Source: Candidatus Rokuibacteriota bacterium | GTDB lineage: Bacteria > Methylomirabilota > Methylomirabilia > Rokubacteriales > CSP1-6 | Direction of reading: 5' to 3' | Assembly: GCA_023248995.1 (NCBI GenBank) | Contig: JAHFDN010000025.1 | Coordinates: forward strand, 1 to 33,262 | Length of the DNA: 33,262 bases | Position numbers and translations under genes: made by a program | Shown: piece by piece, positions 9,409-32,550 of the stretch | Numbering within the stretch: the stretch's first letter is position 1 | Layout: each line of letters starts with the position of its first letter | The notes under the pieces: generated by a model | What the model was told of the DNA's origin: nothing | Database searches by the model: none | The model's input: the letters and a program-made list of their open reading frames with translations, nothing else

Positions 9409-10173
9409 ATGAACGAAGAACGAAAGCTGGCCCTGTTCATCGATTTCGAGAACATCGCGCGCGGCGTCAAGGAGGCGCAGTACAAGGGATTCGAGATCAA
9501 GCTCGTTCTCGAGCGGCTCGTCGAGAAAGGGAAGATCATGGTGCGCCGCGCCTATGCCGACTGGAACCGTTACGCCGAGTACAAGCGCGGGTTCCACGAG
9601 CACGCCATCGAGCTGATCGACGTCCCCCAGAGCCGGTACAGCGGGAAGAACTCCGCGGACATCCGCATGGTTGTGGACGCGATGGACCTGGCCTACTCGA
9701 AGGGGCACGTGGACACCTTCGCGCTCGTGTCAGGCGATTCGGATTTCTCCCCGCTGGTGTCGAAGCTCCGGGAAAACGACCGCTACGTGATCGGTCTCGG
9801 CGTGAAGTCTTCCTCCTCCGAGCTGCTCGTGTCGAACTGCGACGAGTTCATCTTCTACGAAGACCTCATCCGGGAGGCGAAGAAGACGCACCTGCTGCGC
9901 GGGCTGCCGGAGAAGAAGGCCGAAGCCTTCGCCCAGATCATCGAGGCGACCCAGGCACTCCAGCGCGAGAACAAAGAGGTCCTCTGGGGCTCCATGGTCA
10001 AGCAGACCATGATCCGCAAGAACCCCGCCTTCAACGAGTCCTACTACGGCTACTCGACGTTCTCCAAGCTCCTCGAGGAGGCCGCCAAGCAGAAGATCCT
10101 CACGCTCGAGCGGGACGCCAAGAGCGGCACCTACATCATCACGTCCGTCGTTGAGGAAGGCCGCGCCGCGTAG
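9409..10173 (+). CDS. NYN-domain (PIN-like) protein with C-terminal LOTUS/OST-HTH domain
   Basis: Probably an RNA-binding protein or RNase. Residues 1-150 form an NYN/LabA-like PIN-fold domain: [13 protein letters not shown] (first acidic cluster), [16 protein letters not shown] (central Asp pair), [26 protein letters not shown] (DSD motif) and the [18 protein letters not shown] end. These aspartates are the expected metal-binding active site. Residues 165-250 ([17 protein letters not shown] through [26 protein letters not shown]) match a LOTUS/OST-HTH winged-helix domain that binds RNA. An AAGGAAGGA ribosome-binding site lies about 10 nt before ATG 9409 and a TATAAT box at 9362. The gene ends 20 nt before a CaiB/BaiF remnant. 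Confidence 0.9.
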
Positions 10174-10192: not shown

Positions 10193-10326
10193 CGTCCCCT
10201 GGCGGGCGTGCGCGTGCTGGACCTCACCTGGGTCCTCGGCGGGCCGTTCGCCGCCATGCAGCTCGGCGACCTGGGAGCCGAGGTCATCAAGATCGAGCCC
10301 CCCGACGGGGACTTCTCCGTCCTGGG
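10193..10326 (+). pseudogene. N-terminal remnant of a CaiB/BaiF-type CoA-transferase
   Basis: The + frame reads [20 protein letters not shown] then [19 protein letters not shown], which is exactly how CaiB/BaiF (formyl-CoA/carnitine-CoA) transferases begin. The match stops after about 42 residues; the frame then reads unrelated sequence ([10 protein letters not shown]) to a TAG at 10394. A full member has about 400 residues, so about 90 percent is missing. There is no clear start codon or ribosome-binding site; the frame only opens inside the end of the NYN gene. It appears to be a deletion scar left when a CoA-transferase gene was lost and the selenoprotein gene became the downstream neighbour. 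Confidence 0.75.
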
Positions 10327-10368: not shown

Positions 10369-10410
10369 GGCTCTGTCTTGCGGAAACGTGCACTAGCCGC
10401 TGGAGGGAAC

Positions 10411-11016
10411 ATGGCGATGGGGTGGCTCCGAGTCACAATGCTGGCGGTCGTCCTTTCGGCGCCGGCGTCCGCCGGGGCCCAGGATCCCGCCTTCCGGCTG
10501 ACGTTCGACCCGGCCATGGTCAAGGGGCCCGTCAGCGCCCCCGTGACCATCGTGGAGTTTTCCGACTACCAGTGACCCTACTGCCGACGGGTCCAGCAGG
10601 TGCTGGACCGAGTCCTCGGGGACTACCAGGGAAAGGTGCGCCTGGTGTTCAAGGATTTCCCGTTGCCCTTCCACGCCCTCGCCCGTCCCGCCCACGAGGC
10701 CGCCCGCTGCGCCGGGACCTTCAACCGGTACTGGCGCTATCACGACCGCCTGTTCGAGGCTCAGCCTGACTTCTCGCGCCCAGAGCTCCTTCGCTACGCG
10801 ACCGAGCTCGGCATCCCGGCCGATGCGTTCGCCCGGTGCCTCGACAGCGGCCAGTTCCGGAACGTGGTGGAGGCGGATGTCGTGCAGGGACGGCACATGG
10901 GCGTTTCGGCGACCCCGATGTTCTTCATCAATGGCGCCCGCCTCGCCGGCGCCCATCCGTACGAGGCCTTCAAGGAAGTCATCGACCAGGCCCTGCGCGA
11001 GGCCGGCAAGCGTTGA
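10411..11016 (+). CDS. DsbA-like thiol oxidoreductase, probable selenoprotein (Sec55 at TGA 10573-10575)
   Basis: Probable periplasmic thioredoxin-fold oxidoreductase of 201 residues if the in-frame TGA is read as selenocysteine. Signal peptide (GWLRVTMLAVVLSAPASAGAQ), then VKGPVSAPVTIVEFSDYQ-[TGA]-PYCRRVQQVLDRV. In DsbA/DsbG-like proteins this is SDYQ-Cys-PYC, so TGA stands exactly where the nucleophilic Cys of CPYC belongs, giving Sec55-Pro-Tyr-Cys58. The same frame continues without a gap through the family's helical insertion (FPLPFHALARPAHEAARCAG) to the cis-Pro loop (VSATPMFFINGARLAGAHPYEAF, Pro169) and the C-terminal helix. A perfect hairpin with an AGGU loop follows the TGA. GGAGGG at 10402-10407 supports ATG 10411 (ATG 10417 is also possible). 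Conventional calling gives a 55-codon stub plus a headless 138-aa protein. The alternative is a nonsense mutation or base error at a former TGC/TGT. Confidence 0.86.
10586..10614 (+). promoter_or_regulatory. SECIS-like hairpin directing UGA recoding in the DsbA-like gene
   Basis: GGTCCAGC (10590-10597) and GCTGGACC (10602-10609) form a perfect 8-bp stem closing the tetraloop AGGT (10598-10601). The stem extends through GAC/GTC (10586-10588 with 10612-10614) past a small internal loop. The loop begins 22 nt after the TGA, within the spacing accepted for bacterial SECIS elements, and has G at its second and third positions as in E. coli fdhF (AGGUCU). It lies wholly within codons RVQQVLDR, as bacterial SECIS elements do. 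Confidence 0.82.
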
Positions 11017-11634: not shown

Positions 11635-11940
11635 ATGAGCGATCCGTGCGGGCAACCGGTCGGCTGGGTGCTGTTGGCGTTCGGATTCCTCGGCCAGGCC
11701 TTCTTCTCCACGCGATTTCTCGTTCAGTGGATCGCGTCGGAGCGCAAGAAGGAGAGCGTGATCCCGATCTACTTCTGGTACTTCTCCGTAGGGGGCGGCC
11801 TCACCCTCCTGATTTACGCCATTCTCCGCGTGGACCCGGTCTTCATCGTCGGCCAGGCCGCCGGACTGTTCGTGTACTCCCGGAACCTCTACCTGATCTG
11901 GCGGAAGAAAGACCGGCTGGCCGCTTCTCACGGGGCCTGA
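11635..11940 (+). CDS. Lipid-A-disaccharide synthase N-terminal-type membrane protein (LAB_N)
   Basis: A 101-residue protein that is almost entirely the LAB_N domain, three membrane helices normally found beside or fused to lipid A or sugar-transfer enzymes. Segments: VGWVLLAFGFLGQAFFSTRFLVQWIASERKKESVIP, IYFWYFSVGGGLTLLIYAILRVDP and VFIVGQAAGLFVYSRNLYLIW. The FLVQWIASE and FVYSRNLYLIWR signatures are intact. No glycosyltransferase is adjacent, which is common for stand-alone copies. GAGAGGGA precedes ATG 11635. Its presence supports a lipopolysaccharide-bearing outer membrane. The 108 bp upstream is a divergent promoter region shared with the helical unknown. The next gene begins 18 nt downstream. 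Confidence 0.9.
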   Translation: MSDPCGQPVGWVLLAFGFLGQAFFSTRFLVQWIASERKKESVIPIYFWYFSVGGGLTLLIYAILRVDPVFIVGQAAGLFVYSRNLYLIWRKKDRLAASHGA

Positions 11941-29765: not shown

Positions 29766-30470
29766 CTCCACCGCTTCCCCGAGACTCTGCGCCAGCGGGC
29801 AATCCCGCTCCCCCCAGACGCCCCCGGGGTCCAGGAGGATGCCCCCGAGGCCGGCGGCGCGGGCGCCGACGATGTCCACGGAATAGAGGTCCCCGATGTA
29901 CGCGGCCTCTTCCGGCTCCACCCGCGCCTCGCCCAGCGCCATCAGGAAGATCCGGGGGTCGGGCTTCTCCACTCCCACCACCGCCGAGTCCAGGATGAAA
30001 TCCAGGTGAGCGGCAAGCCCCGTCTCCTCGAGGATCGAGCGGACCGACCCGTTCGAGTTCGAGATGACTCCCACCGACAGCCCCGCCTCCCTCGCCCGCC
30101 GGAGGGCGGCCTCGGCCTGGGGATGCGGGAGGTTCCAGATCCCGACGGGACGGTTGTAACTTCTGCGCCACTGGGTCACGGCCTGGATGGTGGCCTCGTC
30201 CTCGACCCCGAGCCCCTCGAGGATGTAGCGGAGGTACTGGCCGACGACCGACCTTCCTTCGGTGGACGCCCCTGGCGCCAGGTCGGGATCCAGCCGTACC
30301 CGCGCCCGGTACTCGGACCGGGCGACGGCCTCCGGCGTCACGCCGATCCCGTGGCGCCGGAGCTCAGCGGCGATGGCGGCGTAGTTCATCTGGAGCAGGG
30401 TATTGCCGGCGTCGAAGAAGAGCCCCCGCAGAGGACGGGATCGTGTCAGAGAGATGGCGCGTTTCGTCAT
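29748..30470 (-). CDS. HAD-superfamily hydrolase (subfamily IA)
   Basis: A 240-residue phosphatase-like enzyme. Motif I is LFFDAGNTLLQMN: nucleophile Asp present, but the second Asp of DxD is Gly, as in haloacid-dehalogenase and REG-2-like members. Motif II VGVISNSNGS, motif III Lys in VGVEKPDPRIF, motif IV YIGDLYSVDIVGARAAGL. The cap is helical (about 30-110). Missing the usual general acid, it may be a dehalogenase or a phosphatase using another residue. ATG 30470 lies 11 nt after TATAAT on the same strand with no Shine-Dalgarno sequence. Confidence 0.9.
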   Translation of the reverse strand: MTKRAISLTRSRPLRGLFFDAGNTLLQMNYAAIAAELRRHGIGVTPEAVARSEYRARVRLDPDLAPGASTEGRSVVGQYLRYILEGLGVEDEATIQAVTQWRRSYNRPVGIWNLPHPQAEAALRRAREAGLSVGVISNSNGSVRSILEETGLAAHLDFILDSAVVGVEKPDPRIFLMALGEARVEPEEAAYIGDLYSVDIVGARAAGLGGILLDPGGVWGERDCPLAQSLGEAVELALGG

Positions 30471-30490
30471 GGGCCTAGCCTATTATAAGG

Positions 30491-30583
30491 ATGAAGGAGC
30501 CGATGGAAATGCCCAAGGCGCGCGGCGTGGTTACGGGGTGTGGCGGCTCGCCGGTTCCGGCCGACCAGGCGCCCGGACGGTGA
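30491..30583 (+). CDS. Possible 30-codon leader peptide overlapping the CopD gene start
   Basis: ATG AAG GAG CCG ATG opens a 30-codon frame (MKEPMEMPKARGVVTGCGGS...) whose TGA (30581-30583) overlaps GTG 30580 of the next gene as GTGA. That GTG has no ribosome-binding site of its own, so coupling would explain its translation. AT-rich TATTATAAGG lies immediately upstream. There is no family match and no proof of expression. Confidence 0.25.
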   Translation: MKEPMEMPKARGVVTGCGGSPVPADQAPGR

Positions 30584-32550
30584 TCGCGCTCGGCTTGGCG
30601 GCCCGCTGGGTCCATCTGGGGGCCGGCGTCTGGCTCGTGGGCACCTTCGCGCTCTTCCTCCTGGCGGGTCGCTCGGACCGACCGACGGCCCGGGCGTGGG
30701 AGCAGCGCCTCATCTGGTGGACCCGGTGGGTCGTGGGGCTTCTCTTTCTCTCCGGGCTTGGCAGCCTCGCCTATCAGGCGGCGCTCGTCACGGGGCATCC
30801 CCGGGGTGCCTGGTCGGGCCCGACACTCCTCGGGCTCCTCGCCGCCACCCAGTTCGGCACGGTCTGGCTTCTCCGTCACAGCCTGCTCCTCCTTCTCGCC
30901 GGGCTGATCCTCCTCCGGGACAGCGAGGACCGGGAGTGGGACTGGGCCGCGTTTCGAGGGGAAGGGCTCGTGCTCGGGGGAATCGGGCTCGCGCTCATGG
31001 CCTGGGCAGGCCACGCCGCCGCCGTCGAGCCCTGGGGACTCGCCGCGGCCGGAGCCGACGCGCTCCACCTGCTGGCCGTCGGCGTCTGGCTGGGAGGGCT
31101 CGGCCCCCTCTGTCTCCTCCTCCGCGCTGCCGGCACGGAGGCCGGGGCCGACGCCCGACCCTTCGCCGTGTCGGCCGCGAAGAGCTTCTCCCAGGTCTCT
31201 CTCGTCGCGGTGCTGGCGGTCGCGGCCACGGGCGGCTGGAACAGCTGGAACCAGGTCGGCGGTGTCCCCGGCCTCGTCGGCACCCGCTACGGACGTCTCC
31301 TCCTCGTGAAACTCGGGTTGTTCATCGCGATCCTCACCCTGGCCGCCGTCAACCGTCTCCGCTTGCTCTCCCTCTTGTCGGGGGAGGCGGAGACCGTCGG
31401 CCGTCCCGCGATGAGACGGCTTGCCGCGTTCGTCGGGATCGAACTGGTCCTCGGCGCCGCCATCCTCGCCGTCGTCACGGCAATGGCGGTCACGCCTCCG
31501 GGCCGGCACACCCAGCCGTGGTGGCCGTTTCCGTTCCGGTTCTCCTACGCGGCCACCGCCGATCTGCCCGGCGTCAGAACGCGACTTCTCATCGGGAGTC
31601 AAGTTGCCCTGGCCGGATTCCTGGGAATGTTGATGGGATGGTTCCTCGGCTGGCGCCGCCGGCTGGCGGTGAGCCTGGCCGCGGCCGCTTTCGTGGCAGG
31701 GCTGGGCGTGGGGCTGCCTCCGCTCGCGGTCGAAGCCCATCCGACCACTTACCGTCGCTCGCCGGTCTCCTATCACGCCGCCTCCATCGTCTACGGCCGG
31801 GAACTCTACGCCACCCACTGCGCGACGTGCCACGGGCTCACGAAAAAGGGCGACGGGCGCCCGGACCTGGCCGCGCCACGCCTCGCCCGGCTGACCGCGG
31901 GGGACCTCTTCTGGTGGACCCGGCACTGGGTCGCCCTGCGCGGCGCGCCGGCCACGGCCGGCCGCCTGTCGGACGAGGAGCGCTGGGACGTCGCGAACTT
32001 CCTGCGAACCCTCTCGGCGGCCGAGCGCGCGCGGACGCTCACGGACGTCGTCGAGCCCGACAAGCCGTGGCTCGTCGCTCCGGACTTCACGTTCGCGGTC
32101 GGTCCGGGCGCGCCGCAATCGCTCAGGGACTTCCAGGGCCGCCGTGTCGTGCTGGCAGTGCTCTTCACCCTGCCCCACTCGCGCCCCCGGCTCTCCCAAC
32201 TGGCCCGGAACTACGACATCCTCCGGGTCATGGGGGCCGAGGTCATCGCGGTGCCGACCGATGGCGGAGAGCAGATCATCTCCCGTCTGGGTGCCTCCCC
32301 GCGGATTCTCTTTCCCGTGGCCACCCAAGGCGGACAGGAGATTTTGGCCGCGTACTCGTTCTTCTGGCCAGGGACCCGCGCCGCCTCCCCAGCCCACGCG
32401 GAGTTCCTGGTTGATCGGCAGGGGTTTCTCCGTGCCCGCTGGGTCCCCGACGGCAAGGGGTGGACCGAGATCACCGCCCTGCTCGCCGAGATCCAGCAAC
32501 TCAACCAGGAAGTGCCGGCGACCACGCCCCCCGACGAGCACGTGCACTGA
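30580..32550 (+). CDS. CopD-cytochrome c-redoxin fusion protein
   Basis: About 656 residues from GTG 30580 (GTG 30538 is an alternative). The first 390 residues hold many membrane helices of the CopD copper-resistance/transport family (ARWVHLGAGVWLVGTFALFLLAG, WAGHAAAVEPWGL, HLLAVGVWLGGLGPL, LLLVKLGLFIAILTLAAVNRLRLL). A c-type heme site follows: HCATCHG, Cys414-Cys417-His418, then RLSDEERWDVANFLRTLS. The usual distal Met of such domains is missing; the position reads GAPATAG and no Met occurs before the next domain. Residues about 500-640 form a redoxin fold (PDFTFAVGPGAPQSLRDFQGRRVVLAVLFTLPHSRPRLSQLARNYDILR), but the Cys pair site is TLPHSRPR, without Cys. Probably an electron- or copper-handling membrane protein, acting with the CusF-like gene 2 nt downstream. 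Confidence 0.87.
   Translation: MIALGLAARWVHLGAGVWLVGTFALFLLAGRSDRPTARAWEQRLIWWTRWVVGLLFLSGLGSLAYQAALVTGHPRGAWSGPTLLGLLAATQFGTVWLLRHSLLLLLAGLILLRDSEDREWDWAAFRGEGLVLGGIGLALMAWAGHAAAVEPWGLAAAGADALHLLAVGVWLGGLGPLCLLLRAAGTEAGADARPFAVSAAKSFSQVSLVAVLAVAATGGWNSWNQVGGVPGLVGTRYGRLLLVKLGLFIAILTLAAVNRLRLLSLLSGEAETVGRPAMRRLAAFVGIELVLGAAILAVVTAMAVTPPGRHTQPWWPFPFRFSYAATADLPGVRTRLLIGSQVALAGFLGMLMGWFLGWRRRLAVSLAAAAFVAGLGVGLPPLAVEAHPTTYRRSPVSYHAASIVYGRELYATHCATCHGLTKKGDGRPDLAAPRLARLTAGDLFWWTRHWVALRGAPATAGRLSDEERWDVANFLRTLSAAERARTLTDVVEPDKPWLVAPDFTFAVGPGAPQSLRDFQGRRVVLAVLFTLPHSRPRLSQLARNYDILRVMGAEVIAVPTDGGEQIISRLGASPRILFPVATQGGQEILAAYSFFWPGTRAASPAHAEFLVDRQGFLRARWVPDGKGWTEITALLAEIQQLNQEVPATTPPDEHVH

Follow-up and report, generated by a model that had tools for sequence, protein, structure and literature searches.

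A DsbA-like gene interrupted by an in-frame UGA

The window analysed here, a stretch of 33,262 nucleotides from the genome of a Candidatus Rokuibacteriota bacterium, encodes a DsbA-like protein in a frame of 201 codons (10411-11016) that is open apart from a single internal TGA, which we predict to be read as selenocysteine (Sec). The gene, its parts and its two conserved neighbours are arranged as follows.

9409-10173, plus strand: NYN-domain/OST-HTH protein, conserved upstream neighbour (Pfam NYN, 4.7e-36)
10402-10406 (approximate), plus strand: putative GGAGG-like ribosome-binding site, read from the sequence directly 5' of the ATG
10411-11016, plus strand: predicted Sec-containing DsbA-like coding sequence, 201 aa, ATG at 10411, stop TGA at 11014-11016, translated with TGA as U
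10411-10482 (cleavage site approximate), plus strand: putative N-terminal signal peptide (MAMGWLRVTMLAVVLSAPASAGAQ)
10573-10575, plus strand: TGA, predicted Sec (U55) at the nucleophile position of U-P-Y-C, from 44 readable genes, the sel machinery and TGC/TGT in Cys homologues
10582-10584, plus strand: Cys58 (TGC), resolving Cys of U-P-Y-C, invariant in the alignment of relatives
10590-10609, plus strand: bacterial SECIS hairpin, from folding and covariation; stem GGTCCAGC/GCTGGACC (10590-10597/10602-10609), loop AGGT (10598-10601)
10708-10710, plus strand: Cys100, invariant in the same alignment
10837-10839, plus strand: Cys143, likewise invariant
10915-10917, plus strand: Pro169, the thioredoxin-fold cis-Pro, which follows Thr168; both are invariant
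11635-11940, plus strand: small LAB_N (lipid A biosynthesis N-terminal domain) protein, conserved downstream neighbour (Pfam LAB_N, 2.1e-32)

The initial annotation had located the TGA, the Cys58 codon and the cis-Pro codon correctly, and had read the sequence on either side of the TGA as two halves of one DsbA-like protein in one frame. The joined product agrees with this, as its matches to Pfam Thioredoxin_4 (4.4e-32) and DSBA (3.6e-22) both span the TGA. With the TGA taken as Sec, a signal-like segment is followed by FSDYQ-U-P-Y-C (residues 50-58), and the protein has the marks of the DsbA-like/Thioredoxin_4 group: a score over the gathering threshold, a helical insertion in the thioredoxin fold, UxxC and cis-Pro. 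An AlphaFold2 model built on an alignment of 28 relatives has a mean pLDDT of 91.5; its N-terminus forms a helix at residues 5-15, and confidence is low ahead of residue 30. Cys100 and Cys143 may form a second, structural disulfide. Other TGA-joined, high-GC3 frames within the window have no Cys-like redox motif at their TGA.

Gene neighbourhood

Directed tblastn over 28 orthologous loci recovered a same-strand NYN gene upstream in 26 and LAB_N downstream in 26, giving a conserved one-strand order of NYN/OST-HTH, Sec-DsbA, often an XRE-type regulator, and LAB_N. The gaps between neighbours measure hundreds of bases, and within the window they are occupied by a minus-strand ORF and a fragment left from a CoA-transferase family III gene (10199-10312, plus strand), which covers only the first 38 profile positions and lies between the NYN and DsbA genes. 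Such spacing does not suggest a tightly packed operon, nor does either neighbour stand out as a redox partner. The NYN/OST-HTH protein, mostly 85-97% identical across the family, has no obvious redox link. Elsewhere in the window, an ORF at 30403-32550 (plus strand) encodes an unusual fused redox protein in which CopD membrane and cytochrome c domains are joined to an AhpC/TSA thioredoxin-like domain at the C-terminus.

A covarying hairpin accompanies the UGA

The 8-bp hairpin occupies nucleotides 15-34 after the TGA, and its AGGU loop begins 22 nt after it, exactly where the initial annotation had placed it. Folded alone, the 28-nt hairpin stretch reaches -16.4 kcal/mol (z -3.74, with none of 200 shuffles as good), while larger folds that take in the flanks stand out less (z -1.6 and -0.9); single-sequence folding by itself is modest evidence. 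The proposal that this region forms a SECIS element gains from covariation. The hairpin core is kept in all 44 Sec-type genes, with 94.4% of stem cells paired, and three of seven pairs have compensatory exchanges in both strands (G-C to C-G, U-A to C-G and C-G to U-A). None of 500 shuffles reaches the covariation score of 0.115, against 0.047 in shuffled alignments, and moving the partner strand by 1-3 columns drops stem pairing to 11-44%. The four inner pairs of the stem are invariant, and are uninformative on their own. At one locus (L036) an Asp to Asn change is accompanied by a compensating base change that preserves the stem.

The hairpin is broken or absent in every Cys version examined, both the orthologues (L041, L163 and L164) and more distant homologues, and these versions provide a natural control for the recoding signal. 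With its loop at +22, within the range of about 16-37 nt, its covariation and its absence from Cys versions, the element fits the bacterial SECIS class. Searches against the Rfam SECIS families gave no match at the gathering threshold, and a relaxed E-value gave only unrelated weak matches. The E. coli fdhF SECIS has a bulged U that the present hairpin lacks. Among the Sec-type DsbA genes the loop is GGTC in most, and U-less loops also occur (GGGC in four, GGAC in three).

Distribution of Sec and Cys versions

A search of 95 genomes from the phylum recovered, within the family to which the window belongs, an orthologue with TGA in about 45 genomes and a Cys orthologue in three (G002, G084 and G087); most genomes of the family have an orthologue. 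In 44 readable Sec-type genes, 43 of them distinct and our own gene included, TGA falls at exactly the same codon, and every Cys homologue examined has TGC or TGT there. Both results speak for the initial annotation's reading, and the random stops elsewhere that would have spoken against it are rare among relatives (in the hit table, G033 has one additional TAA and G083 another TGA). Conservation by codon position after the TGA (0.82/0.84/0.62) resembles that before it (0.86/0.84/0.68) and has the pattern of a coding frame. One orthologue (L181, G006 C33:18301-18693) lacks its N-terminal part and whole active site, and its genus-mates have an intact Sec gene. G049 shares its class with the genome of the window, and its DsbA stretch is letter-identical over ~40 residues to L100 from Candidatus Methylomirabilis sp. 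MAG-BB-18, which suggests Methylomirabilota as the phylum of this clade.

We placed 93 proteins on a quick maximum-likelihood tree that left out the Sec column and did not infer rooting. One group of 47 (SH-aLRT 96) unites all 44 Sec proteins with the three Cys orthologues. Since the Cys rows L163/L164 and L041 are nested inside this Sec group, the simplest reading is that reversion from Sec to Cys happened twice in the clade. A second Sec-DsbA subfamily (L162, G026 C61:1507-2112; L175, G005 C142:2441-3046) carries SDYQ-TGA-P[FY]C and a different hairpin, GGCACGTCCGTGAGACGGTGCC. On the tree L175 falls away from the main Sec clade, surrounded by Cys proteins, and this subfamily is apparently independent of that clade.

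Selenocysteine machinery

The source assembly (2.34 Mb in 57 contigs, 97% complete) contains selA, selB, selC and selD, the four genes that the initial annotation had proposed to look for. The tRNA-Sec gene (selC) has the anticodon TCA (UCA) and scores 70.9 bits, over the gathering threshold; selA (593 bits) adjoins selB (380 bits) on contig 51; and selD, on contig 22, itself carries a TGA in frame where its Sec is encoded (CAG-TGA-ASKMGP). SelD is unrelated to the DsbA-like protein and likewise carries its in-frame TGA at a Sec position, which by sequence shows that the Sec system serves a second gene in the same genome. Among relatives tested, 43 of 46 have selA.

The UGA as a predicted selenocysteine codon

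We consider it almost certain, as a prediction, that the UGA at 10573-10575 is read as Sec, a judgement that excludes the direction of electron flow. Recoding is decisively supported because the 44 Sec-type genes share both the TGA codon and a kept hairpin. Were the TGA instead a nonsense mutation, or a miscalled TGC or TGG, in a pseudogene or faulty read, one might point to the truncated CoA-transferase fragment directly upstream as a sign of some decay nearby. The frame is otherwise open, however, its catalytic and structural residues are invariant, the hairpin covaries, and the same TGA recurs across about 20 genera (44 genes); orthologues sharing the TGA rule out mutation, error or pseudogene in practice, and we give this reading practically no credence. 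It is also highly improbable, if a shade less so, that the UGA is a true stop dividing a short N-terminal peptide from a separately started C-terminal protein. An ORF from GTG 10600 does exist, but a protein started there would be missing the fold's first strand and active site, and the Cys homologues are single proteins. We reject two separate proteins on the further ground that the hairpin accompanies TGA and is missing where the codon is TGC or TGT. Comparison across genomes shows the gene, its recoding signal, the decoding machinery and a purifying selection that continues past the UGA.

Read as a Sec codon, the UGA suggests the following scheme. The hairpin just 3' of the UGA would recruit SelB and Sec-tRNA(UCA), and decoding would yield U55-P-Y-C58 within a full-length chain that the signal peptide would export. 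The U55 selenolate would then attack a substrate disulfide, or a U55-C58 selenenylsulfide would accept electrons from substrate thiols, with C58 resolving the intermediate formed at U55. For the DsbA-like protein, we infer export, catalytic use of Sec and the direction in which electrons pass.

Redox partners and the direction of electron flow

The initial annotation had envisaged a Sec-Pro-Tyr-Cys oxidant in the periplasm. The Sec in this proposal is upheld by the 44 genes with TGA, whereas the oxidant role is less certain: we detected no VKOR in the source genome and no DsbB in any of the 29 genomes searched, the source genome included, and the source genome has a DsbD_TM/CcdA homologue with a match over the cut-off. 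The window protein is the only Thioredoxin_4 protein detected there. Because neither VKOR nor DsbB was detected, we lean slightly, in this genome, towards a reductase or isomerase that would work through the CcdA/DsbD-type membrane protein. The missing VKOR and DsbB may be a gap in the assembly.

That the same selenoprotein is a dedicated oxidase like classical DsbA, re-oxidised by VKOR (in some relatives possibly a Sec protein itself) or by a partner that escaped detection, seems to us only a little less probable than even. VKOR occurs in 15 of the 29 genomes of the group, among them the near relatives G015, G027 and G091, where it speaks for an oxidase role. The best fold matches of the window protein, TsdA and BdbD, are oxidases. 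On the other side, its own genome lacks a detected partner of either kind, and its cis-Pro is preceded by Thr, a feature of DsbC and DsbG. The NCBIfam family nearest to it, of thioredoxin-like (seleno)lipoproteins, is described as DsbG-like in a review (PMC13188914), which also argues against the oxidase.

A candidate Sec-VKOR in relatives

Our VKOR search also recovered genes with a single TGA in three relatives from three genera. These candidate Sec-VKORs lie as follows.

L195: G028, C57:43138-43536
L196: G016, C31:30842-31144
L197: G018, C107:4538-4837

In the quinone-side CxxC the TGA takes the place of the second Cys (CPLU), in the context DLRQPCPL-TGA-I[AV]GHALHAAVAALL; this motif reads CPYC or CPWC in the group's other VKORs. 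L195 is 79-86% identical to the other two proteins, and with Cys substituted for the TGA the match to Pfam VKOR has an E-value of 4.2e-12. Some 20 nt after the TGA there is a hairpin, GCGGC-GGTC-GCCGC, with the GGTC loop found in most of the DsbA genes. Conservation by codon position after the TGA is 0.83/0.83/0.72, which is weak evidence of coding because it covers only about 23 codons, partly overlapped by the hairpin. VKOR is not mentioned in the 2026 selenoprotein review (PMC13188914), and no bacterial Sec-VKOR appeared among the titles and abstracts of a literature search. The candidate Sec-VKOR of these three relatives is more novel than the Sec-DsbA itself, and we offer it as a lead rather than as proof.

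It is conceivable, though we think it unlikely, that the exported disulfide-exchange pathway of this lineage is selenium-based, with Sec-DsbA kept, occasional reversion to Cys, and a Sec-VKOR (CPLU) in at least three genera as well. If so, the relay of thiols between substrate and quinone would cross two selenocysteines. The candidate Sec-VKOR would by itself carry the use of selenium into the pathway's membrane step. The Sec-DsbA genes themselves add a well-supported, long-lived clade of proteins, probably exported, with whole-genome context. Standard annotation would mark such genes as truncated. The natural Cys versions without a hairpin provide matched Sec/Cys pairs, which could inform on the benefit of selenium to a periplasmic disulfide-exchange enzyme and on the survival of Sec outside the cytoplasm.

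Comparison with known systems

The initial annotation had left open whether this subfamily was already described, and in kind it has been known since 2005 and 2008. A Sargasso Sea survey reported nine DsbA-like UxxC sequences (PMC1088965), the GOS survey listed the selenoproteins DsbA 1 (pfam01323) and DsbA 2 with 63 and 18 sequences (PMC2398784), and a 2026 review catalogues a 'DsbA-like protein form 1' (PMC13188914). The proteins of all three sources share with ours a DSBA/Trx fold, Sec in first position of CxxC, a SECIS just after the UGA and widespread Cys homologues. The earlier surveys drew on marine reads, and we set them beside the present clade by description, whereas here whole-genome context, nested Cys versions and synteny are available. 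A literature search found nothing specific linking Rokubacteria or Methylomirabilota to selenoproteins beyond the 2026 review, a passage of which mentions a Methylomirabilota MAG with 63 predicted selenoproteins (PMC13188914).

The best NCBIfam match is NF041057, the Rcas_1661 thioredoxin-like (seleno)lipoprotein family (E 4.5e-35, residues 32-193), named 'DsbG-like protein' in the 2026 review (PMC13188914). At 121.4 bits the score falls below the curated cut-off of 190, and as the match begins only at profile position 78, the window protein is missing about 77 N-terminal positions. NF041057 has Sec at UxxC, as the window protein does. It is a lipoprotein family, whereas the window protein lacks a lipobox; in some orthologues, such as L029 and L037, a Cys resembling that of a lipobox lies close to the signal peptide. 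A literature search for Rcas_1661 found nothing.

The solved structures most similar to the model are those of C. diphtheriae TsdA/DsbA, B. subtilis BdbD and Wolbachia alpha-DsbA, with a query-based TM of 0.71-0.76. BdbD, TsdA and Wolbachia alpha-DsbA1/2 are all Cys-based rather than Sec-containing, and are 21-29% identical to the window protein. The second Cys pair of alpha-DsbA1, whose solved C97A/C146A mutant is among the fold matches, resembles the invariant Cys100 and Cys143 here. The Sec-DsbA gene appears to belong to an already known kind, for which the comparative support is here unusually complete.
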